From: Fibrobacter sp.
Lineage (GTDB): Bacteria; Fibrobacterota; Chitinivibrionia; Chitinivibrionales; Chitinispirillaceae
Direction of reading: 5' to 3'
DNA: 33,654 bases
Assembly (NCBI GenBank): GCA_012515615.1
Contig: JAAYYB010000203.1
Location: 1-33,654, forward strand
Under the pieces are notes generated by a model. It worked only from the letters and a program-made list of their open reading frames with translations. It had not been told where the DNA came from and made no database searches. Numbering within the stretch: the first letter of the stretch is position 1; every line of letters starts with the position of its first letter. The position numbers and the translations under genes are program-made. Shown here one piece after another: positions 1,629 through 26,792 of this stretch.

Positions 1629-3554
1629 TCAAGCCGCCTCCATCTCTGCTTTCAGAAGCCCGGTAAAGCGCCCGATTCTCTCTGTAATGCTTTCTGTGTC
1701 AAGCTTAAGCTCTTTATACAGAAGAGCCGAATCACCATGAGGAACAAACTGATCGGGAAGACCCAGATTGAGAAACTTTGGGACTTTTTCAAGATCAAGT
1801 GTACTTGTCAGTTCAAGCAGAGAAGAACCGAAGCCGCCGCAAAGCGAGTTGTTTTCCATCGTTACTATGAAACGGTTTTCCGAGAAAAGTTTTCTGTAGA
1901 AATTGATATCAAGCGGCTTTGCAAAGCGCGCGTCAACCAGAGTGGGGGAGAGACCCTTTTGCTGCAGAGCATCGCAGACAGAACGGGCAGTGCAGAAGAA
2001 ATCCCCGATAGATATTATTGCGATATTTTTTCCCTTTGAGATTATTTCCGGGGTTGTTTCAATAGCTTCAGGGTTGCTATCCAACTCTACGCCCACACCG
2101 CACCCTCTTGGGTATCGGATGAAAACCGGTCCTTTCAGGTGGTCAACTGCGGTGACCATCATTCTGCGGAGCTGATTTTCATCACGGGGAGCCATTATCG
2201 TTACACCGGGAATAGTACGCAAAAATGAGATATCGTATGCTCCATGGTGTGTCGGGCCGTCATCACCTACCAGTCCGGCTCTGTCAATGCAGAAAATTAC
2301 ATGCAGATCATCCAGAGCAATATCATGAATCAACTGATCGTATGTTCTCTGAAGAAAAGTCGAGTAGAGGGCTACAACCGGTTTCATTCCTTTAAGGGCA
2401 AGACCTGCGGCAAATGTAACAGCATGAGACTCTGCTATTCCGACATCAAAAAATCTCTGGGGGAACGCTTCATTGAACTCAGAAAGTTTCGTCCCGTCTC
2501 TCATTGCTGCTGTAATAGCTACAATGTCAGGTCTGCTTGACGCCATCTCTACAAGTGTTTTCCCGAATATATCACTATAGGTAGGAGCCTGCGTGCCGCA
2601 TTTTATCACATCTCCAGTATCCTTTGAAAAACGGCCGATTCCATGATACTTGGTGGCATTGTTTTCAGCGAAGGAATACCCTTTTCCTTTTTTGGTGATT
2701 ACATGAACCAGTGTCGGGGCGGGTGTGAAATCCTTTAATGAACGGAAAATCTCAACCATTTCAGAGATGTTATGTCCGTCGATGGGGCCCAGATATCTAA
2801 TCCCCATATCCTCAAACAGTTTGCCCGGAACAACTATGTTTTTCAGTGTATAGTCAATGTTGCTTACTAAGCCTCTTATGTTTTTTCCGACATTTGAGCC
2901 GCCCAGCAGATCCCAGATTTCTGATTTGATTTTGTTGTATCGCTTATCGGCAAGTACTCTTGTGAGATATCTGGAGATTGCCCCTACATTCTTACTGATT
3001 GACATCTTGTTATCATTAAGCACTATAGTCATACCGGTAGCCATTGATCCCAGGTTATTAAGTCCCTCAAGAGCAAGCCCGCCGCCTAATGAACCGTCAC
3101 CTATTACAGCTACTACTGAATGCTTCTGCTTCTTTAAATCTCTTCCGGCCGCCATCCCCAGTGCGGCGCTTATCGAAGTGGATGCGTGTCCGGCTGAAAG
3201 GGCATCATATTCGCTCTCGGAATGACGTGGAAAGCCGCTGAGTCCGCCGTACTGTCTTATAGTGTGGAACTGGTCACGTCGCCCGGTAAGTATCTTGTGG
3301 GCATAGGCCTGGTGCCCTACATCCCAGACTATCTTGTCTGTCGGGGTATTGTAGCAGTAGTGAAGAGCGACTGTAAGATCGATTACTCCCAGACTGGGTG
3401 CAAGGTGACCTCCTGTGCGGCTGACTACGTCGATCATAAACTCCCTTATTTCATCTGCTACCTGAGGCAGCTTATCTACAGGGAGTTTCTTGAGGTCCAG
3501 GGGAGAATTGATTGTTTCTAAAAGCTTTGTAGTAGACACTTTTATCCTTTGCAT
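1629..3554 (-). CDS. dxs: 1-deoxy-D-xylulose-5-phosphate synthase
   Basis: 641 aa; DXS motifs GGHLAPSLGVIDLTVALHY, DVGHQAYAHKILTGR, IGDGSLGGGLALEGLNN, DGPTHHGAYDISFLR. Confidence 0.97.
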   Translation of the reverse strand: MQRIKVSTTKLLETINSPLDLKKLPVDKLPQVADEIREFMIDVVSRTGGHLAPSLGVIDLTVALHYCYNTPTDKIVWDVGHQAYAHKILTGRRDQFHTIRQYGGLSGFPRHSESEYDALSAGHASTSISAALGMAAGRDLKKQKHSVVAVIGDGSLGGGLALEGLNNLGSMATGMTIVLNDNKMSISKNVGAISRYLTRVLADKRYNKIKSEIWDLLGGSNVGKNIRGLVSNIDYTLKNIVVPGKLFEDMGIRYLGPIDGHNISEMVEIFRSLKDFTPAPTLVHVITKKGKGYSFAENNATKYHGIGRFSKDTGDVIKCGTQAPTYSDIFGKTLVEMASSRPDIVAITAAMRDGTKLSEFNEAFPQRFFDVGIAESHAVTFAAGLALKGMKPVVALYSTFLQRTYDQLIHDIALDDLHVIFCIDRAGLVGDDGPTHHGAYDISFLRTIPGVTIMAPRDENQLRRMMVTAVDHLKGPVFIRYPRGCGVGVELDSNPEAIETTPEIISKGKNIAIISIGDFFCTARSVCDALQQKGLSPTLVDARFAKPLDINFYRKLFSENRFIVTMENNSLCGGFGSSLLELTSTLDLEKVPKFLNLGLPDQFVPHGDSALLYKELKLDTESITERIGRFTGLLKAEMEAA

Positions 3555-3662: not shown

Positions 3663-5159
3663 TCAACAGGGAAATCTCTTCATTTCTGATTCATCAATCA
3701 CCCCGGGATTCTCCACCAAATACCATAACAGGAAAGGAATGATCGTCTTTTTGACAGCACATGCTACCGATCTGCCGTATCCTATAGCTTCAGGGGTACT
3801 GAGGCCTGAGGCCTGGGCAGTAATCCAGGATGCAGGACAGCCGCCATGGCATAAAAATCTGTATTCACAATCTCCGCAGGATTCATTCCTATCGATATCC
3901 GTCTTCTCACTGAGCCAGTGCAGGGGTGCCAGGTTCAGATTATCAGGATCCTGAACGTTTCCGATTTTCAGCCGCTCCAGCCCGACATAGTAAATGCAGG
4001 GGTAAATATCTCCATTTACGTCAACAACCGGTGTGTTACCAAAAGGGGCACCGCAACAGCAAAGGTTCTCCCGTATCAGGAGATCTCTGAGCATCTCACT
4101 TATCGGGGATATATCATTTATCTTGTAAATACCGCTCTTCAGCACGTCAAGAAGACCATCCGCGAATACCTGCGGATCGGGGTACCAGTCAAGCGGCAGT
4201 GCGCATTCATCGCTTGTGATCGGCATGACCGGTACAAATGCTGTTCTTCGCCCGCCAAGGTCTTTATGTGTCTGAGCGATCTGGACCATTGATTTTACAT
4301 TGTGGCTGGTTATTGTGGCTCTTAACGTGAGTTCGAATCCCTCAGACACAAGTTTCCTGATGTTTGGAGAAATTCTGCTGAAAGATCCTTTGCCGTTAAT
4401 AAAAGGTCTGAGTTTGTCATGTAGTTCCTCTGGACCATCGATATCACATAGAATTCCCGCATTATACTCTTTGCCCCATGATACAAGATCAGGCGGTATT
4501 GATGCAAGATTTGATGTAAGATGATAGCTCAGCTTACCTTTAATCTTGCTCTTAAGTTCAGATTCGCAGTATCTGGTCACATTCTTTGCCGTTTCCCAGT
4601 TAAGAAGCGGCTCTCCGCCAAAAAGAATAATCTCCCCGTTTGCTCCCTCATTAAGGCGCTTAGAGAAGAAGTTAACTGCCTTAAATGCAATATCTTCAGG
4701 CATTTTAAGTTTGCTTTTTTTCTGGTAGGTAATGTCACCATTAAGGCAATAGATACAACTTAGATTGCAGAATTGCGTCAGCAGAAGGTAAAGCGCAAAG
4801 CCGTCTTCGCCAAGTGGAAAACTTTTTGATTTCGGGCAGATGTCTTCCTGGTTCTCAGTTGATCCTGAATTGAGAATGTTAAACGCGAGAAAAAGGTCAA
4901 TAAGCCTTTCGTAATCAGGGTGCAAAGGTGCCAGCAACGAACGTGAGCCATTTACAGATAAATCATTCAGGAACTGAACTACAAAGTCTTTTCCTTCGGA
5001 GAAATAGAGAGGGTCAAGATGACGCCCGTTTGTGAGGAGACATTCCTTGTTGTTGCGGGTGAGAAAGATAACCGGATCACAGAGAACAAATTTCTCGACA
5101 GTGTGTACTTCCTGTAATCTCTTGAGTCTTAAGTCGTTGCCTTCGGTACTTAGTGTCAC
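3663..5159 (-). CDS. Radical SAM/SPASM-domain protein, peptide-maturase-like
   Basis: GTG start overlapping the upstream stop. rSAM motif CNLSCIYC, FGGEPLL, C-terminal SPASM-like cysteines (CGAPFGNTPVVDVNGDIYPC... CGDCEYRFLCHGGC). About 110 aa N-terminal extension before the rSAM core. Confidence 0.88.
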   Translation of the reverse strand: MTLSTEGNDLRLKRLQEVHTVEKFVLCDPVIFLTRNNKECLLTNGRHLDPLYFSEGKDFVVQFLNDLSVNGSRSLLAPLHPDYERLIDLFLAFNILNSGSTENQEDICPKSKSFPLGEDGFALYLLLTQFCNLSCIYCLNGDITYQKKSKLKMPEDIAFKAVNFFSKRLNEGANGEIILFGGEPLLNWETAKNVTRYCESELKSKIKGKLSYHLTSNLASIPPDLVSWGKEYNAGILCDIDGPEELHDKLRPFINGKGSFSRISPNIRKLVSEGFELTLRATITSHNVKSMVQIAQTHKDLGGRRTAFVPVMPITSDECALPLDWYPDPQVFADGLLDVLKSGIYKINDISPISEMLRDLLIRENLCCCGAPFGNTPVVDVNGDIYPCIYYVGLERLKIGNVQDPDNLNLAPLHWLSEKTDIDRNESCGDCEYRFLCHGGCPASWITAQASGLSTPEAIGYGRSVACAVKKTIIPFLLWYLVENPGVIDESEMKRFPC

Positions 5160-5860
5160 TTGTCGTTAAGCTTCTGAAGAATAAGTGTCCAGGAAAGTGC
5201 GTATGTTCCCACTTTAGCCTTGAAATCGTTATTGGCGTCTTTGTACATGGGGAAATTATAATTGTAATGCTTGAGATCTACTCTGACAGAGACCGGAAAA
5301 TCAGGCAGGAAGTAGGCGCCTGTGGACCAGTTAATCTTCCATTCCAGTTTATTACCCTGAAATAAACCATCCCACTCTTTGTATCTTCCGAAATGAAGAG
5401 AATAGAATGGTCTGAAAACTTTATCTAATCGGGGGACTTTCAGTACAAACCGGGTATAAAAATTTCTGTAGCTTATGGCCCTTAAGGAATCCGCCATGCC
5501 ACCTTTTATCCATTCCCAGTCATCGATATTGAAGTAAGATTGATTGTACCTGACCTTATCAATGTTAGGATTAACGATATCAAAACTGTACCCGAATTCT
5601 GTCGCCAGCATGTAAAAAAAAGAAAACCCCAGATAAGTTTCTACACCACAGGTAAACTTGTTCTCGTCCCTGGCTTCCGGTGACCAGTAGTATCCCTGAT
5701 CACGAAAAAGTACCCCGTCTTCATCATTTGTCGTGGATTTGAAGGAAAGACCTCCAAGAAGATACACTCCAAACCCGTCGAATTTTGCAATCTGTCCTTT
5801 AACAGAAAAAGAACTGACCATCAGCAGGCATATCGCAATTATTAGTTTTCTATATATCAT
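5156..5860 (-). CDS. Probable outer-membrane protein with signal peptide, unknown function
   Basis: Start at MIYRKLIIAICLLMVSSFSVKG (ATG 5860) overlaps the upstream stop as ATGA. Alternating aromatic/polar strands typical of beta-barrels. The listed ORF start at 5884 is probably too long. Confidence 0.6.
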   Translation of the reverse strand: MIYRKLIIAICLLMVSSFSVKGQIAKFDGFGVYLLGGLSFKSTTNDEDGVLFRDQGYYWSPEARDENKFTCGVETYLGFSFFYMLATEFGYSFDIVNPNIDKVRYNQSYFNIDDWEWIKGGMADSLRAISYRNFYTRFVLKVPRLDKVFRPFYSLHFGRYKEWDGLFQGNKLEWKINWSTGAYFLPDFPVSVRVDLKHYNYNFPMYKDANNDFKAKVGTYALSWTLILQKLNDK

Positions 5861-6159
5861 TTTATGTTGCTTGCATATTGGCATGTGACATCACAGTTTG
5901 TTCTTAAGCTCTGACCGCAAGGCGCCTCTTTTCTGGGCCCGCTTCCACGCATATTGCCCCTGCATTCTCCAGCGGCTTTACCCATGGCTCCAAAAAAGCC
6001 GAATGGGTTGGCTTCCTTTTCTGAAATCCGGTACCCCATTCCGCATCCGCTTGTGAAAAGGGCTGCGGCGCAGAAAGCTCCGGTTTTCATGATAAGTTTG
6101 CCTGATTCTTTTAAGAATTGACGGCGATCGATTGCCTTTTTCTGCTCGCTTTTCTCCAT
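5857..6159 (-). CDS. Small Tat-signal Cys-containing peptide (100 aa), candidate rSAM substrate
   Basis: MEKSEQKKAIDRRQFLKESGKLIMKTGAFCAAALFTSGC: twin-arginine motif plus hydrophobic stretch. Mature part has 4 Cys (ECRGN, APCGQ, TNCDV, VTCQY). SD GAGGTG upstream of ATG. Confidence 0.75.
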   Translation of the reverse strand: MEKSEQKKAIDRRQFLKESGKLIMKTGAFCAAALFTSGCGMGYRISEKEANPFGFFGAMGKAAGECRGNMRGSGPRKEAPCGQSLRTNCDVTCQYASNIK

Positions 6160-6193
6160 TTAGCACCTCAGTATATAGATGACGGACTTTTAC

Positions 6194-6222
6194 AAAATAT
6201 ACTGTTTATTAAAGGTTGTCAA
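6194..6222 (-). promoter_or_regulatory. Sigma70-type promoter for the peptide/OMP/rSAM cassette
   Basis: Minus strand TTGACA (6217-6222), 17-nt spacer, TATTTT (6194-6199), about 35 nt upstream of the ATG at 6159. Confidence 0.6.
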
Positions 6223-6375: not shown

Positions 6376-7922
<1,547 letters not shown>

Positions 7923-10965: not shown

Positions 10966-11904
10966 TTACATGGCACGGTAGAACATGCAGTCATTAACAG
11001 TGTAGGCTGTAACCAGACTCTCTGATACCATGTTCTCGAGGATAACTGAAAGCTGACTGAGTGCTACTCCGCTTATTCCTGAGAGCTCTTCAATTGTGGA
11101 CGGACGTCTTTTCAGAAGGCTGAGGATAGTTTCTTCTGTTGTGTCGTCTGCTTTTTCATTTTTAAAGGTTTCCAGACTCTTCCTTGAAACGATTTCAACA
11201 GGAAGCGGGGCGAGGAAATCGGATATTTTTGAGAGCTGTTCAAAATCGGCTGTCCTTACCCAGCTGCAGGGGCCGGGCCTGTCAAGGCTGTTGAGCTGGA
11301 CCCGTGATGGATTCATCCTGAGAAGAGACTCTTTAAAGGCCTGCAGTTCAGAAGGATCATCATTTACTCCCGGTACGATGAATACCTCTATCCAGATGGT
11401 TCCCTTAAATTCCCTGCAGAAGGTGACAAGACCCTCAATGATCCTCTGGTTACTTAGCTCTTTGTGAGGCCTGTTTACTGCAGAGAACGCCTTGTCTGAA
11501 ATGGCATCCAGAGATGGGAGAATCAGGTCAAAAGGTTTTGCCGCTTCACGGACCTCCGGTAAATAAAAAAGAGTGCCGTTTGTGAGCAGTGCTGTTTTGT
11601 AATGGGGAAAATTATCTTTTATAAATCTGATCAGCGGACCAAAAGCCGTGTTCAGGGTTGGCTCTCCACTTCCACCGAAAGTCACATAATCGAGTTTTGG
11701 ATTACCTGAAAGGTAATCGGCAATTTCATTGGAGAGTTCCGAAAAACTGACATATTCTTTTCGCTCTATTGTCAGATCGGTAGTTTCACCGCATTCGCAG
11801 TAGACACAATCTAAAGAGCACGTTTTCCCCTGAACCATGTCGATTCCAAGCGAAACACCAAGGCGTCTGGATCTGACCGGACCAAATATGTGCTTGTATT
11901 TCAT
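10966..11904 (-). CDS. Radical SAM protein, COG0731/TYW1-like bacterial family, with C-terminal winged-helix-like region
   Basis: MKYKHIFGPVRSRRLGVSLGID...CSLDCVYCECG, FGGSGEPTLN. The listed start (11922) extends upstream; MKYKH at 11904 fits the family. Confidence 0.85.
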   Translation of the reverse strand: MKYKHIFGPVRSRRLGVSLGIDMVQGKTCSLDCVYCECGETTDLTIERKEYVSFSELSNEIADYLSGNPKLDYVTFGGSGEPTLNTAFGPLIRFIKDNFPHYKTALLTNGTLFYLPEVREAAKPFDLILPSLDAISDKAFSAVNRPHKELSNQRIIEGLVTFCREFKGTIWIEVFIVPGVNDDPSELQAFKESLLRMNPSRVQLNSLDRPGPCSWVRTADFEQLSKISDFLAPLPVEIVSRKSLETFKNEKADDTTEETILSLLKRRPSTIEELSGISGVALSQLSVILENMVSESLVTAYTVNDCMFYRAM

Positions 11905-11931
11905 CACTCGTCCAACTTGCAAATTACAAAT

Positions 11932-12948: not shown

Positions 12949-13074
12949 GTAATAGACGGTTTGAGTGCGAATAACCGCTCAGCTCTTCTATCCATGCATG
13001 CATCCACGTTATATTTTGTATAAGCAGAACAATTTTTCTCTGTGTATTCTGATAGTGGCCCGGTAAAGGAAACT

Positions 13075-14076
13075 ATGCCTGAAACTATAAATTTGCATTC
13101 TATACCTCCCGAAACCGCCAATGACCGTTCCGCAATTATCGGATTAGAAAACAAGGGCGAATTCTGGAAACCTTGCCCCGGAACAACCAAAGGTTATTTA
13201 TGCTGCGGTTACCAGATAATCACTCCTTCTACCGGCTGTGGTATGTACTGCAGGTACTGTATCCTGCAGGCTTATTTTCCTTATCAATGTCAGGTGGTTT
13301 TTACAAATTTTGACGACCTTGCAAACGAGATCAAAACAAGGCTTCCGCAGAAAAAAGGCGTTCTGAGATTTGGAACCGGTGAATTCGGGGACAGTCTTTT
13401 TTCTGAAAAACAATCGGGGGCAGCGGTAAAAATTGCGGATCTGCTCGATCCTTATGAGAACGTGATCGTGGAATTCAAGACTAAGTGTGCCGATATATCA
13501 CCGATTTTCGGCGTTCAGAATCCAGAAAAGGTGATTATCGGCTTTTCCATGAATACCCCGGCTATGATCTCCTGCATGGAGGAAAAAACCGCATCTTTAG
13601 ATCAACGGCTCAGTGCCGCTGAAAAATGTCTGGAAATGGGCTTTAAGGTGGCATTTCACTTTGATCCGATGTTTATTTACGATAACTGGGAAGAAGATTA
13701 CAGAAACGTTGTCAGAGCCATTTTCAGGGTGGTTAAAGATCCAGAGAAAATTGCCTGGATAAGCATGGGTGGATTTAGATCCATGCCTTCTCTGAAATCG
13801 GTTTTAAAAAACAGGGGAGACCACCTTTCGCTTTTTTCCGGTGAAATGATTTGTGGTGAAGATGGCAAATTGCGTTACTTCCGTCCTCTGCGGGTGGCTC
13901 TTTACAGAGCGATGCTTGATGAGTTTAACAGGCATTTTCCTCAGATAACACTTTATATGTGCATGGAAAGTCCTGAAGTCTGGGAGGAATCGGGAATGAT
14001 CGATAAAATCCCCGGGGGCCTTGTCAAGTATCTGGACTGCAGGGCAATGCGCCTGCTCGGTCTGGATCGTGCATGA
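13075..14076 (+). CDS. Radical SAM protein, spore photoproduct lyase (SplB)-like family
   Basis: TPSTGCGMYCRYCILQAYFPYQ is SplB-like with CxxxCxxC; FRFGTGEFGDS, EFKTKCADI. ATG 13075 with AAAGGAAACT upstream is preferred over GTG 13042. Confidence 0.8.
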   Translation: MPETINLHSIPPETANDRSAIIGLENKGEFWKPCPGTTKGYLCCGYQIITPSTGCGMYCRYCILQAYFPYQCQVVFTNFDDLANEIKTRLPQKKGVLRFGTGEFGDSLFSEKQSGAAVKIADLLDPYENVIVEFKTKCADISPIFGVQNPEKVIIGFSMNTPAMISCMEEKTASLDQRLSAAEKCLEMGFKVAFHFDPMFIYDNWEEDYRNVVRAIFRVVKDPEKIAWISMGGFRSMPSLKSVLKNRGDHLSLFSGEMICGEDGKLRYFRPLRVALYRAMLDEFNRHFPQITLYMCMESPEVWEESGMIDKIPGGLVKYLDCRAMRLLGLDRA

Positions 14077-14980: not shown

Positions 14981-17900
14981 TTATTGCCTTGCAATATTCT
15001 GTCTGTAGTCGGGAAGCATTATAGTAGACCAGTTATCAAAATCGTAACCCAGTGAGAAAGAGAAACGGTTTCCACCCAGAGGCGGCTTTCTGTCGATACC
15101 CCGATCCCAGCGGAATTTAAGTGCAAGGGGGTAGCTGCTGAAAGTCTGAGCCTCAAGTCTCATCTCCAGTCCGTATGAAACAAGCCAGTCTTCACGATTG
15201 AACTCAAAGAAGTCCTTTGGTTGATCCCAGCCGGCTCCTGCACTGACATTTATGCATCCGTAAAGTCTTTCCAGGTACAGGAACCAGAACTTTTTATCTA
15301 TCAGTTTGGGCCAGAGTGGAAATCTGTAGGAAACCTCACCGCTGATAACAGCTTTTCCGGTAACAAGAAGTGTGTCCTGACTCATCCTGACAGTGTCCTG
15401 ATCATCGGTGTACTTGGTCTTGGCATCGCGAAAATAGTAGGAATATCCCTGAACCCACGCTCCCGGATAGTAAAAAGAGGGCAGTTCCTGGTCCTGGCGT
15501 TTTTCAATAATATTAAGGTATGTGCCTTGCATATCAAGGTGCAGATCATGCTTGCCGTACCATGGTGCTGCCACGCCCGCCTTTACATGACTCATTACCT
15601 GCTGAAAAAGATACTTGTCGTATAATTCTTTCGGGGTGCTGCTTTCAGGATCAAAACTGTTCTCCTCTTTAAGTGAATTCTGGCTCCAGAGGTCATACTG
15701 CACTTTGGAGGCGATACCCCTTGGAGAAATATTCATCTTTGATTCCGGCACTCTTGCTGCCATGATGCCCATCGTGCCGAAACGGAAGCCCTTGCTCAAA
15801 TTGTAATTGAAAACTCCTATATCGTAAAGATCTTCCAGATATATGTTTACATCGTATATGTTTGCGCCAAAGAGCAGATTCAGGGCAAGCAGGTTATTAT
15901 CATAAGTGCTTGAACCGGCGAAGAAATGAGAAATGAGGAGGTTGAAATTCTGAAGCTGCATATTGTAAGGCTGGACAACAACACTGTCTATGGATTCATC
16001 AAGAAACTCATCCCTGTCAGCTATTCCTCTGAGCATGTAATCAAAAGAAACGGTCAGAGGAAGGACTTTTGTGGTGGCAAAAAGTCCCAGATCATAACTT
16101 GCTTCAGTGTTTATTCCACCCTGATCGGGGTCAATGAAATCAAAAAGATGCTTTGGTTCAAGGAAGAAGAACCCGCCGATCTCCGACCCACCGCCGGAAA
16201 GCGTCAGCGGTTCAATGAGGTTGAAGACAGCCCCGAATTTAAAGGTTGTAATACCTTTCTGTGAGTTTGACTCTTCTGTGACAAGCTGTTCTGCCATCAG
16301 AACCGGGGAGACAAGGAACTGTCTTGGAAACCATTGGTAGGGGCGTGGTGCGCTCAAATCCACGGGGTTGGCGCTGTCCGATGATAATTCCCGTTCTGTC
16401 ATGAAAACCGCGGTATCTGCAGCCAATGATACTATAGAATCAAGGACGTATATGCCGTAGCCCTGATTGTCATATCCAGAATAAACAAGCTTTGAGTTAT
16501 CCGGCGATACGGATGGCTGAAATGCACCGCCTGAAACGTTTGTAACCTGTTCTGTTCTCTTATTTGCCAGATCGTACCTGTAGACATTGAATATTCCGGT
16601 ACAGTCAGAGGAATAGTAAAGATATTTGCCGTCAGGGCTGAAAGACGGGTCACGTTCGTCTTTGCCTGAATCCGGCAGAACGATACATTTTTTTGTGAGT
16701 GTATCATAAATACCGATGTTGCGGTTTTTGCTGTCAAAGAAGCTGAACGCTATACTCCTGCCGTCAGAGGACCAGTCCATGCTGTAAATGAAGTCTATCT
16801 GCAGAGAGTCGGCAGCCGTGGCGGGATAAAGCACGTTGACCTTTTTACCTGCGGTGTCGGTAACTGCAAGGTAAAAACGATTTACATCTCTGCGCGCGAA
16901 TGCCAGCATTCTGCCGTCAGGTGAAAATGTGGCGTTGAAAACAGACTTTTTTTCTGTCAACTGACGTTCGGATTTCTTCCTGAACAGTTTGAACTCTTTT
17001 TTCCATGTTGGAAGAGTATCGATGAAAAGGTCAAGTACTCTGCTGCCGCCGTTTTTGGCAGGAACCACAGATTTTCTGCTTTTATTGCTTATGAAGCTGA
17101 TTTTCCCGCTACCTGCATGAATATCATAGTACCCGCCGACCGGAAAAACAGGGTTTTTGATTCCGGTAGTATCTGCAGTATCGCTGACTGGAAGAAGGTA
17201 AAGCTGTTTGCGACCGAAGTCACTTTTACCGTTTGACAAGAAATAAACATTGCTGCCGTCCGGTGAAAACCGGGGCCAGGCATTTTCATAACCATTCCTG
17301 TTGATTTTTCGCCCGTATACCTGAGTGCCGATCTCTTTAATCTGCTCTTTATAACGCAGCTCCAGGGATCGTTTCCAGTCGCTGTAAAGTTTTTTTGCTG
17401 TAATACCCAGTACTTCTTTGACTGACTTATCAAAATTCAACCTGGTTACTTTTGAACTCTCACGAAGCAGGGAAACGATTTTGTCATAACCGTAGGTTTC
17501 AGCAATGTAGCTGACCAGTGAAAATCCGTGATTGTAGGATTTTTCGTAATCGTCACCTTTTCCGGCAAAAACCTGCATGTGGTCCCAGGAGAGCAGCTTG
17601 TCGGAAATCGTAAGGGTTCTCAATATCATGTCTCTGTGAGAATCCCATGTATCACCTTTCTGTCTTGTACTTTCGTATTGTGCTATACCTTCTGTAAACC
17701 ATGCCGGAAGGATATCGGAAGGAAAAGAGTGGAATGCTTCGACCCGGCCCCGTTCATTTGGATGAGAGAAAAAACCGAGCCGCAGATCGAGAACCTGGGG
17801 CTGAAATTTCAGTCCTGACCAAATAGAAACAATATGGGCGAATTCATGTGCTATAACATCGTCAAACCAGTTATGGCTTCCCCTGAGATTAAAGTCGAAA

Positions 17901-18271
17901 TCGTGTGACCAGAATGTAATTGTATTGGAATTTGCGAATGCCCATCCGTTGCTCTCGTCGCTGTCAAGGATCATCACTTCGGTTTTTTTGGGAAGGACAA
18001 GGCCATATGTGTTGCGGTAAATATCATAGAGTTGCTCGAGCCTCGCTGCGACAATTCCGGTCAGGTGTTCGCATCCATCCATGTAGCTGATCCGGAAGTG
18101 ATCTGAGTCCACAGTGTAGTATTTCAGCCCGTAGCCGTTGAATCTTTCCGCTGATGCTTCTGATAACAGAAAAGAATGCACGAAGAAAAAGCAGAACAAA
18201 AGAATGCGCATAAGTCCGTGATTATGCTGGACGGATGACCTGTGGTTTATCGGCATATTTCTTTTTATCAC
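14981..18271 (-). CDS. Peptidase-MA-like (HEFAH) protein with TolB/PD40-like propeller and C-terminal barrel-like region
   Basis: 1096 aa; VIAHEFAHIVSIWSG zinc motif at 17834-17848; repeated SPDG..(L/I)xYxSD motifs; beta-rich C-terminus. GTG start overlaps the upstream stop (GTGA). Confidence 0.75.
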   Translation of the reverse strand: MIKRNMPINHRSSVQHNHGLMRILLFCFFFVHSFLLSEASAERFNGYGLKYYTVDSDHFRISYMDGCEHLTGIVAARLEQLYDIYRNTYGLVLPKKTEVMILDSDESNGWAFANSNTITFWSHDFDFNLRGSHNWFDDVIAHEFAHIVSIWSGLKFQPQVLDLRLGFFSHPNERGRVEAFHSFPSDILPAWFTEGIAQYESTRQKGDTWDSHRDMILRTLTISDKLLSWDHMQVFAGKGDDYEKSYNHGFSLVSYIAETYGYDKIVSLLRESSKVTRLNFDKSVKEVLGITAKKLYSDWKRSLELRYKEQIKEIGTQVYGRKINRNGYENAWPRFSPDGSNVYFLSNGKSDFGRKQLYLLPVSDTADTTGIKNPVFPVGGYYDIHAGSGKISFISNKSRKSVVPAKNGGSRVLDLFIDTLPTWKKEFKLFRKKSERQLTEKKSVFNATFSPDGRMLAFARRDVNRFYLAVTDTAGKKVNVLYPATAADSLQIDFIYSMDWSSDGRSIAFSFFDSKNRNIGIYDTLTKKCIVLPDSGKDERDPSFSPDGKYLYYSSDCTGIFNVYRYDLANKRTEQVTNVSGGAFQPSVSPDNSKLVYSGYDNQGYGIYVLDSIVSLAADTAVFMTERELSSDSANPVDLSAPRPYQWFPRQFLVSPVLMAEQLVTEESNSQKGITTFKFGAVFNLIEPLTLSGGGSEIGGFFFLEPKHLFDFIDPDQGGINTEASYDLGLFATTKVLPLTVSFDYMLRGIADRDEFLDESIDSVVVQPYNMQLQNFNLLISHFFAGSSTYDNNLLALNLLFGANIYDVNIYLEDLYDIGVFNYNLSKGFRFGTMGIMAARVPESKMNISPRGIASKVQYDLWSQNSLKEENSFDPESSTPKELYDKYLFQQVMSHVKAGVAAPWYGKHDLHLDMQGTYLNIIEKRQDQELPSFYYPGAWVQGYSYYFRDAKTKYTDDQDTVRMSQDTLLVTGKAVISGEVSYRFPLWPKLIDKKFWFLYLERLYGCINVSAGAGWDQPKDFFEFNREDWLVSYGLEMRLEAQTFSSYPLALKFRWDRGIDRKPPLGGNRFSFSLGYDFDNWSTIMLPDYRQNIARQ

Positions 18272-21200
18272 CTGACTACTGCCATTTTCCAGTACTTGAC
18301 ATGCTTTTTACCCCGGATTGTCGCTTCGAGCCTGCAGCGGTAAACAGCCGGGCCTAATTTACTGATGTCAACTATGTGCTCGTTCCAGTCAGGATAACTG
18401 CCGGTAAGGTCCTCTGGAGCCGTACCCATTTTAGATTTGGAGTAAACAGTGAATCCCGAAAGACTGAGAATGTCGAGTCTGACAATTTTTGCAGGACCCG
18501 AGAAAGCATAGCGGAATATCGCTTTTTTACTTCCGTTTGTGGGATTGGGGTAATTAAAGAGTTGAATCGGTTCTTTTACCGTGACAATTTCAGGAGGATT
18601 TCCGCCTGCATAAGCAAATGTCCGCCCCCCGTTGGATCCGGTCATGGGCCAGAAAAGCGTATCTGGAAGGATCGACTCGGGCAGATTCCATCTGTAAATC
18701 CATCCGGCAGTGGAAACGGCAAAAAGATCAGGTCCCTTTCCCACACCTGTGAAAGCAGCCATGGGGGAGAGACCCAGAGAAGAGCCAGTTGTAAGCGGCC
18801 AGTTTGATTGCAGAAATGATGAGCCGGACTTAAGGGGACGCTTCCCGCTTTCATCTACGGCATCCAGAAAACCACCGGGAATTACATAGGGGGAGATCAA
18901 GGAATCATTCAAGTTTAAAAGTGTGTCAATCTGTAATGGAGTCAGGTCCCATATACTGTCCCTGGTACCATCAGGATTTACATACCACACTGTTCCTTTT
19001 GAACGGCTCGCCTTTGTTATTTTGGATATCGAGGAGGTAATGTTTTCACCTGTCATTGATGAAAATACCACCAGTGGTTTTTTCTCTTTCCCGGTGAGCA
19101 CCACAGGCGATGACATTACACTGCCACGCTGGTACCAGTTGCGGGTATCCAGATATGCCGGCCACCCATAACTGAGTACCCCTTTGTAATTATAGGCATA
19201 CAGGCCGTTTGTACCGCTGACCAGAATGTCAAGGTATCCGTCACGGTTGATGTCAGAGAGCGCCGGCGGGGAAAGATTCTCCGGCAGCCTTGAACGATCA
19301 TCTTTTTCACTTTTATTTTTTTCACCATCATCGTCATTGTAGGTGTAGAAGCTTGCCCAGTCGATCCCGTCCGATACCCAGCCGGGAGCAAGAGAGAAAT
19401 CCTGTTTAAAAACCCAGACTCCGTGTCTGCTGTCACAGACAACGATTTCACTTTCGCTGTCCCGGTCAAGATCACCGGTAACAAGCGTGTACGGGCCTAT
19501 TCCGGGTACTTTTACCGAATCATCAACGCTGCCGCTCTTGATGTCGCACATTGATAGAGTGCCGTTATTTTGGATAACGGCAATGCTTGAAGTGTTTTCC
19601 CTAATTGCAGCGATTGCGGATACAGCGCTGTCTGATCGCAGTTTGATGGTTAAAAGCTTTTCAAGTGATTTTCCTGACACTACGTTTCCATCTCTGCAGC
19701 CGATTGCCCACGATGAGTCGCTGTGGTTACAGACGTACGTGGATGGAATTTTGCCAAGGGAAATAGAATCGATATCGGCAGCTGAAGTAAGACTCAGCTT
19801 TTTCAGGACATAGATCAGTCTGTTCTCTGAGGGAATCATCACATTACCCGACACTGTGGACGGCATTGCTGAAATACCGGCAAGTTTTTGCAGATAAAAG
19901 ATCGTGTCCGCGTTTTCCACCGTGTCACCCAGAAGATCTACCCGGTCCACTGCCAGAGCCGTTTTGTTGTAGGAATATGTCTCCGACGTGTCTGTTGGCC
20001 ATGCGTAAAGATACCCTGATTTACTGACAAGAACAAACTCTTCACCCCTTGTTTGGGCATCGAGTTCACAGATGACCGGATCAAAATATTGCCCCGGAGC
20101 CGCGCATCTGGGCCAGGACTTGACTAGATAATCCCATTTGACTTTAACACTGAAAACACTGTCGGAGATATTGGCAACCTTATGGTAGTTTTCCCCTCTG
20201 GCAAGAAGCATGTATTCCTTGCGGCTTTTTGAGGAAACCGGATTTATCGTTATATCCAAATATGTGTGCCCGCCATCGTTTGAATGCGTTGACGGTCTGG
20301 TATAAGGACCGAAATTGTTGACAAGCACGGCTTTCTTGCCATCTACCGATGTTTCATGCGGGAACACATCTTCGGCCCCTCCGTAATCAAAAGCCGCCTG
20401 GTAGAATACATCGGTGAACATAATCCCCAGATCTGTAACACCGTCTGCCTCAACCAGGGAGATTCCACGGTAGGAGGAGTCGGCGTTGACCATGTTGTAC
20501 TTTATTTTTTCCTGTATCACACGTTCGTCAACATGCCACACCAGTACTCCCGATGCAGGAAGACTGATGTCGTTATTGCGTACTTTCTGGATCACTCCGG
20601 ATGAGACTTCCTGAACATTGGAGTCGATGTTGATGTTGTAGGGGTAGGAGGCGATTACAACTCCGTGATCATCGGTGGTGTCGTATTTGAAAAGTTTCTT
20701 GTTTCCGGTAAGGTTCCTCTGGCGGTTCTCAATCAGGTAATACTCATGATCATTAATCGGGATCATCAGTATCGTGGTATCATCACCGGCTGCTTCCGTG
20801 CCGTCAAGCACAGAGGCAAGCGCCTTGACATTATAGGAACCGGCAGTGCCGATCGGGGCTACCTTCACCTGGTCCCAGCCCATGAATGCTCTTACCCAGG
20901 CAGAAGGGTAGGGTGGTATAAAGCCGTTTCCTGCAGAGTAACCAGCAAAATCCATGATACAGAATGCGCCAATTCCGGATATGCCGCTTGATGTTGAAAA
21001 CAGGTCCGGAATCCCGATCTGGCGGGCTATCTGATTGACAAGTATTCCCTGTATTCCCCAGTTCAGACCGTCCTGGTTGGATGTCTCGGAGCACATCATT
21101 ATTTCTTTTATCAGCAGAGGACTTTTACCCTGTACCGTTACTCCGTTTGATGGCAGATCGAGAGTATCCCCGAAATAGCGGAAAAATTCCTGGTCGATGA

Positions 21201-22020
21201 AGGCGTCAATCATATCGGAAGGGGTGTCCTGCCCCATGCTCCCCTGTTCACCGCCATCGGTCAGATATGACGAGCCGGCATGGAAAATCAGGAAGACGGT
21301 TTTTCTGTTGCGGCTGTCACGAATCGTGCTGTCGGATTCTTCAAACCTCAGATCGGCAAATGGAGAATTTTTCAGATCTTTCCCGGCATTCTCTATGGCA
21401 TCCTTGACAAATTTCATCAGTCCGTAACTTTTACGGTAATAATAATCATCCCATGTTTCCGATCCCTTTTTTCCGCCGGGAGAATAGTGCGTCATGGAAT
21501 TGGGAACTGCATATCCGGTCTCACCGTACCCTTCAGGGTAGATAGAGTATTCGATTTCGAGTTTTCCTCCCGAGACCTTCCTGTAATAGGACTTGACTGC
21601 ATCGAGCTGACGAGAGAAGTAAAGAGAGTCGTGGGGCCGTGAATCGTACTTGTATACAGTGTCGCTGTTGTAGAAGTTGTTCTCTTCTCTGTCTCCGCCG
21701 CCTCTGATGCCAAAGAGACCGTTTCCTGTTGTCAGTAGAGAGGAGTCTTTTTTTCCGCCGTTGAATTCAACCCTTATTGCAACAACATGAAGTGTATCTT
21801 TTTTCCCCTTGTGGAAAGTTATTGACCACTGGTTGTCACGGGCGGTTTCAACCAAATTCTGTGTTGATACACCCTTGAACAGGTAAGGGTGTATTCCTCT
21901 GGGACCGCCTACAACGTTTTGCTGACGAGTGGAAGCTGCTGTAAGAACAGATGGCAAAAGAAAAACGACTAATGCAAGAATACGGGAAAAATGCATGCTC
22001 TCATCCTGTAAAAAAGACAA
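18268..22020 (-). CDS. Secreted M6-family-like (immune inhibitor A-like) protein, active site degenerate, FG-GAP-like repeats and T9SS-type-A-like C-terminal domain
   Basis: 1250 aa; GILVNQIARQIGIPDLFSTSSGISGIGAFCIMDFAGYSAG...PSAWVRAFMGW matches the M6 layout without HExxH. FG-GAP-like DLDRDSESEIVVCDS, DINRDGYLDILVSGTNG. C-term NYPNPTNGSKKAIFRY...KYWKMAVVR. Real start may be the internal MHFSRILAL. Confidence 0.75.
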   Translation of the reverse strand: MSFLQDESMHFSRILALVVFLLPSVLTAASTRQQNVVGGPRGIHPYLFKGVSTQNLVETARDNQWSITFHKGKKDTLHVVAIRVEFNGGKKDSSLLTTGNGLFGIRGGGDREENNFYNSDTVYKYDSRPHDSLYFSRQLDAVKSYYRKVSGGKLEIEYSIYPEGYGETGYAVPNSMTHYSPGGKKGSETWDDYYYRKSYGLMKFVKDAIENAGKDLKNSPFADLRFEESDSTIRDSRNRKTVFLIFHAGSSYLTDGGEQGSMGQDTPSDMIDAFIDQEFFRYFGDTLDLPSNGVTVQGKSPLLIKEIMMCSETSNQDGLNWGIQGILVNQIARQIGIPDLFSTSSGISGIGAFCIMDFAGYSAGNGFIPPYPSAWVRAFMGWDQVKVAPIGTAGSYNVKALASVLDGTEAAGDDTTILMIPINDHEYYLIENRQRNLTGNKKLFKYDTTDDHGVVIASYPYNINIDSNVQEVSSGVIQKVRNNDISLPASGVLVWHVDERVIQEKIKYNMVNADSSYRGISLVEADGVTDLGIMFTDVFYQAAFDYGGAEDVFPHETSVDGKKAVLVNNFGPYTRPSTHSNDGGHTYLDITINPVSSKSRKEYMLLARGENYHKVANISDSVFSVKVKWDYLVKSWPRCAAPGQYFDPVICELDAQTRGEEFVLVSKSGYLYAWPTDTSETYSYNKTALAVDRVDLLGDTVENADTIFYLQKLAGISAMPSTVSGNVMIPSENRLIYVLKKLSLTSAADIDSISLGKIPSTYVCNHSDSSWAIGCRDGNVVSGKSLEKLLTIKLRSDSAVSAIAAIRENTSSIAVIQNNGTLSMCDIKSGSVDDSVKVPGIGPYTLVTGDLDRDSESEIVVCDSRHGVWVFKQDFSLAPGWVSDGIDWASFYTYNDDDGEKNKSEKDDRSRLPENLSPPALSDINRDGYLDILVSGTNGLYAYNYKGVLSYGWPAYLDTRNWYQRGSVMSSPVVLTGKEKKPLVVFSSMTGENITSSISKITKASRSKGTVWYVNPDGTRDSIWDLTPLQIDTLLNLNDSLISPYVIPGGFLDAVDESGKRPLKSGSSFLQSNWPLTTGSSLGLSPMAAFTGVGKGPDLFAVSTAGWIYRWNLPESILPDTLFWPMTGSNGGRTFAYAGGNPPEIVTVKEPIQLFNYPNPTNGSKKAIFRYAFSGPAKIVRLDILSLSGFTVYSKSKMGTAPEDLTGSYPDWNEHIVDISKLGPAVYRCRLEATIRGKKHVKYWKMAVVR

Positions 22021-26680: not shown

Positions 26681-26709
26681 TTGACAGCAACTCCTTTTTG
26701 GATTTATCT
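26681..26709 (+). promoter_or_regulatory. Promoter for tRNA-Gly
   Basis: TTGACA (26681-26686), 17-nt spacer, TTATCT (26704-26709), 11 nt before the tRNA 5' end. Confidence 0.5.
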
Positions 26710-26720
26710 TCTTGTCTGTT

Positions 26721-26792
26721 GCGGGAGTAACTCAATGGTAGAGTGTAACCTTCCCAAGGTTAAGGTTGCGAGTTCGATCCTCGTCTCCCGCT
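26721..26792 (+). tRNA. tRNA-Gly (anticodon CCC)
   Basis: Cloverleaf: acceptor GCGGGAG/CTCCCGC, anticodon stem TAACC/GGTTA with loop TTCCCAA, T arm GCGAG-TTCGATC-CTCGT, no encoded CCA. Confidence 0.93.

Follow-up and report, generated by a model that had tools for sequence, protein, structure and literature searches.

A unit of three minus-strand genes in the window, by which we mean the whole 33,654-nucleotide stretch analysed (one of the 430 contigs of a Fibrobacter sp. draft genome totalling 5.0 Mb), is a real, rare and orphan-like radical SAM (rSAM)/SPASM cassette. It most likely represents a rare form of a theme found repeatedly in unrelated bacteria, the pairing of an exported peptide that bears a cysteine tail with a radical-SAM enzyme of its own, and we incline slightly to the view that its output is a small secreted peptide matured by that enzyme. 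The genes encode a Tat-signal Cys peptide, a middle protein and the rSAM/SPASM enzyme, and are bracketed by dxs (1629-3554, minus strand) and tgt (6376-7530, plus strand), both assigned by model. The initial annotation had described three genes joined by 4-nt overlaps, and a check of the sequence reproduced all coordinates: the ATGA at 5860-5857 joins genes 1 and 2 and the GTGA at 5159-5156 joins genes 2 and 3, each exactly over 4 nt. Codon usage favours the annotated frame for all three. The sigma-70-like promoter TTGACA-17-TATTTT that had been placed before them is present in the sequence (6194-6222, minus strand, 10/12 matches), but promoter-like matches as a class are not enriched in the window, with 3 against 6.0 expected from shuffles.

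The first gene (5857..6159, minus strand) encodes a peptide of 100 aa, the presumed substrate, with an ATG start, a Shine-Dalgarno-like GAGGTG and favourable codon usage. As first described, it carries the twin-arginine motif DRRQFLK (residues 11-17; 6109..6129, minus strand) and four cysteines in its tail. The motif is followed by a hydrophobic region and a TatC gene is found in the same genome (E 9.7e-67), which together formed our criterion for a Tat substrate; the Pfam TAT_signal model scored 11.6 bits, below its cut-off of 22.7. A detail absent from the earlier reading is the lipobox-like FTSGC at C39 (6043..6057, minus strand), which we take to be consistent with the loose PROSITE lipoprotein rule. 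Since it closes the hydrophobic segment, the gene 1 product is predicted from its sequence to be, probably, a Tat lipoprotein. The same lipobox arrangement is seen in the precursor of a CXXX system from the window's family and in the partner of the nearest enzyme relative, both described below. Besides C30 and C39, the cysteines of the peptide are C66, C81, C89 and C93 of the tail (5881..5964, minus strand), spaced 15, 8 and 4 apart, with C89 and C93 as CDVTC and hence a single CX3C step. The combination of an RR motif, an uncharged stretch, a lipobox and at least four cysteines occurs in one ORF of the window and in 1/150 random windows of equal dinucleotide make-up, a motif chosen after the ORF had been seen. 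No Pfam or NCBIfam model was reached by the peptide, nor did it match any model of the six-Cys SCIFF peptides. Its tail had no significant similarity to CXXX repeats (p 0.16) or to the tail of the partner of the nearest enzyme relative (p 0.58).

The third gene (3663..5159, minus strand, GTG start) encodes a peptide-maturase-like rSAM/SPASM enzyme of 498 aa. Membership in the radical SAM superfamily is indicated by Pfam Radical_SAM (PF04055, 49.4 bits against a cut-off of 29.5), and the SPASM domain by TIGR04085 (57.8 against 27), with the Pfam SPASM model PF13186 slightly below its cut-off (20.3 against 21.5). The CX3CX2C AdoMet cluster motif CNLSCIYC (C131, C135 and C138; 4746..4769, minus strand) and the SPASM-like cysteines noted at the outset are real. 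The SPASM region C369-C467 (3759..4055, minus strand) has seven of them, at 369, 388, 428, 431, 437, 441 and 467, and all ten cluster cysteines are invariant in an 18-sequence alignment. No named NCBIfam peptide-maturase equivalog scored above its cut-off. The PapB ranthipeptide maturase model NF047865 gave 178.7 bits (E 1.7e-52) against 340, the nif11 maturase model 142 against 519, the SCIFF maturase model TIGR03974 139.7 against 425, QhpD TIGR03906 126.6 against 453, the anaerobic sulfatase maturase TIGR03942 108 against 349 and the CXXX maturase TIGR04115 69.6 against 350. The peptide and thioether maturases PapB, nif11, SCIFF and QhpD thus all outscored the sulfatase maturase. The nearest solved structure is CteB (5wgg), both by sequence and by fold, the latter compared by means of an 18-sequence AlphaFold model with a pLDDT of 74. 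PADLOC returned nothing beyond a weak match to its viperin model, which was attributed to the shared fold, and the viperin identity was rejected.

The enzyme has an N-terminal region (residues 1-118; 4806..5159, minus strand), possibly an RRE-like leader-binding domain, which the initial annotation had suggested examining and most of which can be aligned with the nearest relative. Its 118 residues are modelled in the beta3-alpha3 order expected of an RRE, at low confidence in this part of the model. This arrangement is in keeping with the suggestion; a profile comparison with PqqD-like N-termini was not significant (E 0.17), and Pfam gave no PqqD match for the enzyme.

Between the two lies the gene of a Sec-signal protein of 234 aa (5156..5860, minus strand, ATG start; an alternative reading of 242 aa starts at 5884), which had been labelled OM-like. 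It has no relative in Pfam, NCBIfam or the PDB, and was found neither in 151 relatives of the window genome nor in plasmid records. Aromatic residues make up 21% of the protein. An AF2 single-sequence model had a pLDDT of 38 and is uninformative, and a crude test of beta-strand alternation was not above shuffles (p 0.59). Because of this last result, and because the nearest relative of the enzyme lies at a locus with no counterpart of this gene, the earlier proposal of a working OM-like partner is not supported. Nor do the family searches, the model or the alternation test lend support to an outer-membrane beta-barrel.

Several other features were noted in the window and in related genomes. 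Two more radical SAM genes lie at 10966-11922 (minus strand) and 13042-14076 (plus strand) of the window, one of them with no NCBIfam model and one weakly similar to spore photoproduct lyase (88.5 bits against 400). At 14981-22020 (minus strand) a TolB-like propeller protein of 1096 aa overlaps by 4 nt with an M6-like inactivated metalloprotease of 1250 aa, of a T9SS-type family (355.7 bits against 600). A tRNA-Gly (CCC) gene occupies 26721-26792 (plus strand); a 441-aa ORF opening at 26681 runs across it, and the real start of this ORF therefore lies further downstream. In the same family as the window, an rSAM protein of 473 aa, below all maturase cut-offs, adjoins a 70-aa precursor-like ORF with eight cysteines (L057:1-1647). 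Fibrobacter-type rSAM/SPASM proteins of ~695 aa, extended at the C-terminus by a long additional domain, were seen at L061:7089-9170, L062:7831-9915 and L063:6865-8964, with no adjoining Tat Cys peptide.

The cassette is rare. The enzyme was not found at E<=1e-30 in 201 relatives, one of them a member of the same genus. Its matches inside the window's own phylum were mostly 24-30% identical, and none of the loci inspected had a Tat Cys peptide next to such a match. Scans with exact peptide patterns, which detect close relatives only, returned none in 84,980 species genomes and none in IMG/VR viral contigs. In plasmid records the matches were only ~20-30% identical, to nif11, PeaB and other maturases. 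When 168 genomes of the phylum were scanned with TIGR04117, two matches were convincing and the remainder noise. Co-conservation of the three genes had been set as the test of the cassette in the initial annotation; the absence of the enzyme from the 201 relatives and of the middle protein from the 151 means that they do not form a conserved three-gene cassette there. None of the papers searched brings together RiPPs, a twin-arginine signal, radical SAM and a precursor peptide.

One clear and close relative of the enzyme was found. It occurs in a Desulfobacterota-type genome designated G320, one of 395 genomes sampled from the phylum to which a Desulfobacteraceae record belongs, and is 36% identical (E 8e-90) and alignable from residue 33 onward. 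No further relatives at E<=1e-45 were detected in 390 relatives of G320, or in 396 genomes of the phylum that includes a Bacteroidales record, a scan run without a positive control. At this locus (L161:8163-11425) the G320 enzyme gene comes first and overlaps by 10 nt the gene of an LRV/HEAT-repeat lipoprotein. This partner has 601 aa and a hydrophobic segment that ends in the lipobox VGGC, with no RR motif, and its C-terminus is a CTxx/CXXX cysteine tail, CTGCISCTSACTGGCTMQCTGY (...CTGCISCTSACTGGCTMQCTGYTAGSPDAFKLKTY), which opens as CX2CX2CX3C and matches genuine CXXX repeats more closely than its composition would predict (p<=0.001). The two targets resemble each other N-terminally (p 0.004), which may reflect signal-peptide make-up only. 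The G320 coupling supports the pairing of this enzyme with an exported Cys-tail lipoprotein. With a single close relative, co-conservation rests on two loci, and homology between the targets does not extend along their length.

Together with the scores that peak among the peptide and thioether maturases, the coupling at G320 upholds the original view of a peptide-type rSAM/SPASM enzyme beside a Tat-signal Cys peptide. The central idea of a modified, exported Cys peptide is plausible and has gained strength from G320, although the ideas of a conserved cassette, an OM partner and an unusual arrangement that came with it are not supported. We propose, tentatively and with rather less confidence than for a matured secreted peptide in the window, that the window and G320 enzymes form a distinct rSAM/SPASM subfamily whose substrates are C-terminal Cys tails on exported, lipid-anchored proteins, in one case a small Tat peptide and in the other a large LRV/HEAT lipoprotein.

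How might such a cassette work? The 100-aa peptide would be synthesised in the cytoplasm, where the rSAM/SPASM enzyme, probably holding on to the long N-terminal part of the peptide, would reductively cleave SAM and install cross-links in the tail at C66, C81, C89 and C93. Judging from the nearest families, these would probably be thioethers, most likely from Cys to nearby side chains. The modified and folded peptide would then leave through Tat, and C39 would probably be lipidated, which would retain the peptide at the face of the periplasm or outer membrane and leave its rigid tail exposed. The middle protein, co-expressed and Sec-exported, may be a local partner. In this best reading the identity of the substrate, its lipidation, the timing of the steps and any role of the middle protein are all inferred. 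Against it stand the two non-homologous targets, the one CX3C step in a tail that resembles neither CXXX repeats nor the G320 tail significantly, the lack of a significant RRE match and the scores below every maturase cut-off. Of the rSAM/SPASM peptide products that have been characterised, the majority are freed by cleavage from a leader. The Tat signal and lipobox on the same peptide would entail cytoplasmic modification followed by anchoring at the cell surface, and the cross-linked tail, once anchored, would act as a fixed element, whether structural, redox or metal-handling. At G320 the tail sits on a repeat protein of 601 aa, and the same type of enzyme should then modify such a tail whatever its carrier. 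If the subfamily is real, its enzymes would be tail modifiers for surface proteins, not makers of a free natural product.

The main rival explanation, which we regard as unlikely, is that the peptide is a Tat-exported Fe-S or metal-binding lipoprotein and that the rSAM enzyme acts elsewhere, for example on another protein. Tat is the normal route of cofactor-loaded proteins, and a cofactor bound by the tail cysteines in the cytoplasm would explain its use. Some LRV proteins carry Fe-S clusters, and the ferredoxin-like opening of the G320 tail, CX2CX2CX3C, could bind such a cluster instead of being modified. That tail, however, carries on in CTxx repeats that can be aligned with rSAM targets of the known CXXX kind, the spacing of 15, 8 and 4 in the window matches no ferredoxin or HiPIP pattern known to us, and the coupling of a SPASM enzyme gene to the lipoprotein gene at both loci is left unexplained. 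Less probable again is that the window cassette is a degenerate local CXXX-repeat system with the same function and fewer cysteines. TIGR04117 is the top match of the peptide, though a weak one (E 0.03, 14.3 bits against a cut-off of 50), and CXXX systems exist in the same family and order; nevertheless the enzyme falls far short of the TIGR04115 cut-off, the peptide tail has only its single CX3C step, and no TIGR04119 partner occurs in the immediate neighbourhood, where the flanks are dxs and tgt and the middle gene belongs to no family.

Approximately unbiased (AU) tests of the window/G320 pair bear on this rival, as on the last one. Groupings with nif11, SCIFF, CXXX and sulfatase-context enzymes were all allowed: one clade of the pair with the CXXX enzymes was not rejected (p 0.41), nor was grouping with the sulfatase-context clade (p 0.22). 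The initial annotation had asked whether the enzyme belongs to a sulfatase-maturation clade. The score of 108 bits, behind those of the peptide maturases, tells against it, while the p of 0.22 still allows such a deep placement. That the enzyme acts on a different target, either a sulfatase or some protein encoded elsewhere in the genome, its position in the operon being incidental, seems to us the least probable of the three. The anSME-type matches and the allowed sulfatase-context clade agree with it, whereas the score far under the sulfatase maturase cut-off, the lack of a sulfatase among the flanking genes tested and the pairing, at two independent loci, of such an enzyme with a lipoprotein that is exported and has a Cys tail tell against it. 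We continue to prefer modification of the Cys tail by the enzyme encoded beside it.

Among comparable systems, the nearest enzyme found is that of G320, which belongs to no named family and whose gene overlaps that of a lipoprotein with a C-terminal Cys tail; it differs in its large LRV/HEAT target with no RR motif, in its gene order and in having no middle Sec protein. CXXX systems (TIGR04115, TIGR04119 and TIGR04117/TIGR04114) resemble the window cassette in that an rSAM/SPASM enzyme adjoins a Cys-rich target with a twin-arginine signal. True examples occur in the window's order (L054:2713-9046) and family (L055:392-4192), where the TIGR04115 enzymes score 569 and 598 bits. Both systems include TIGR04119 partners and Cys-repeat precursors with an RR signal, and the L055 precursor also has the lipobox VTGC. 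Both also have a similar extra gene of ~105 aa downstream, and a large secreted protein lies upstream at L054. Cys targets of rSAM/SPASM enzymes that have an RR signal are thus known, even in the order and family of the window, and the earlier description of the arrangement as unusual was too strong. The window differs from these systems in the low TIGR04115 score of its enzyme, in having no TIGR04119 alongside and in four spaced cysteines in place of long CXXX repeats. The SCIFF and ranthipeptide maturases (CteB TIGR03974 and PapB NF047865) share the layout of catalytic and SPASM cysteines, and CteB is the nearest structure; the window enzyme lies under both cut-offs, and their known substrates are, to our knowledge, small leader-core peptides with no Tat or lipoprotein signals.

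A three-gene cassette with a Tat precursor was found in two Krumholzibacteriota genomes (L070:3910-8470 and L158:1133-5752), one of whose enzymes was the best of the matches listed in a broad scan of species genomes. The rSAM/SPASM enzymes of the two are 61.7% identical and their secreted proteins 43.6%, with CARDB and sorting-tail domains in the L070 copy. The precursors have an RR signal and a Cys at every ninth residue (26/30 and 25/31 intervals), matched no Pfam or NCBIfam model and possibly represent an undescribed target class. The trees allow both a single lineage and several for the Tat-linked groups, that is, window/G320, CXXX and Krumholzibacteriota. QhpD/PeaB is, like the window enzyme, an rSAM/SPASM protein, and it forms cytoplasmic thioethers in a protein destined for the periplasm (PMC7876137). 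It differs in the score of the window enzyme, far below the QhpD cut-off, in the amine dehydrogenase subunits, none of which was recognised near the window cassette, and in the exit of QhpC, which takes an ABC transporter and not Tat (PMC7876137). In the QhpD/QhpC system, cytoplasmic rSAM thioether formation precedes export (PMC7876137). If our proposal is correct, the window and G320 enzymes would belong, with the CXXX systems and the Krumholzibacteriota cassettes, to a broader strategy in which radical modification comes first and export follows.
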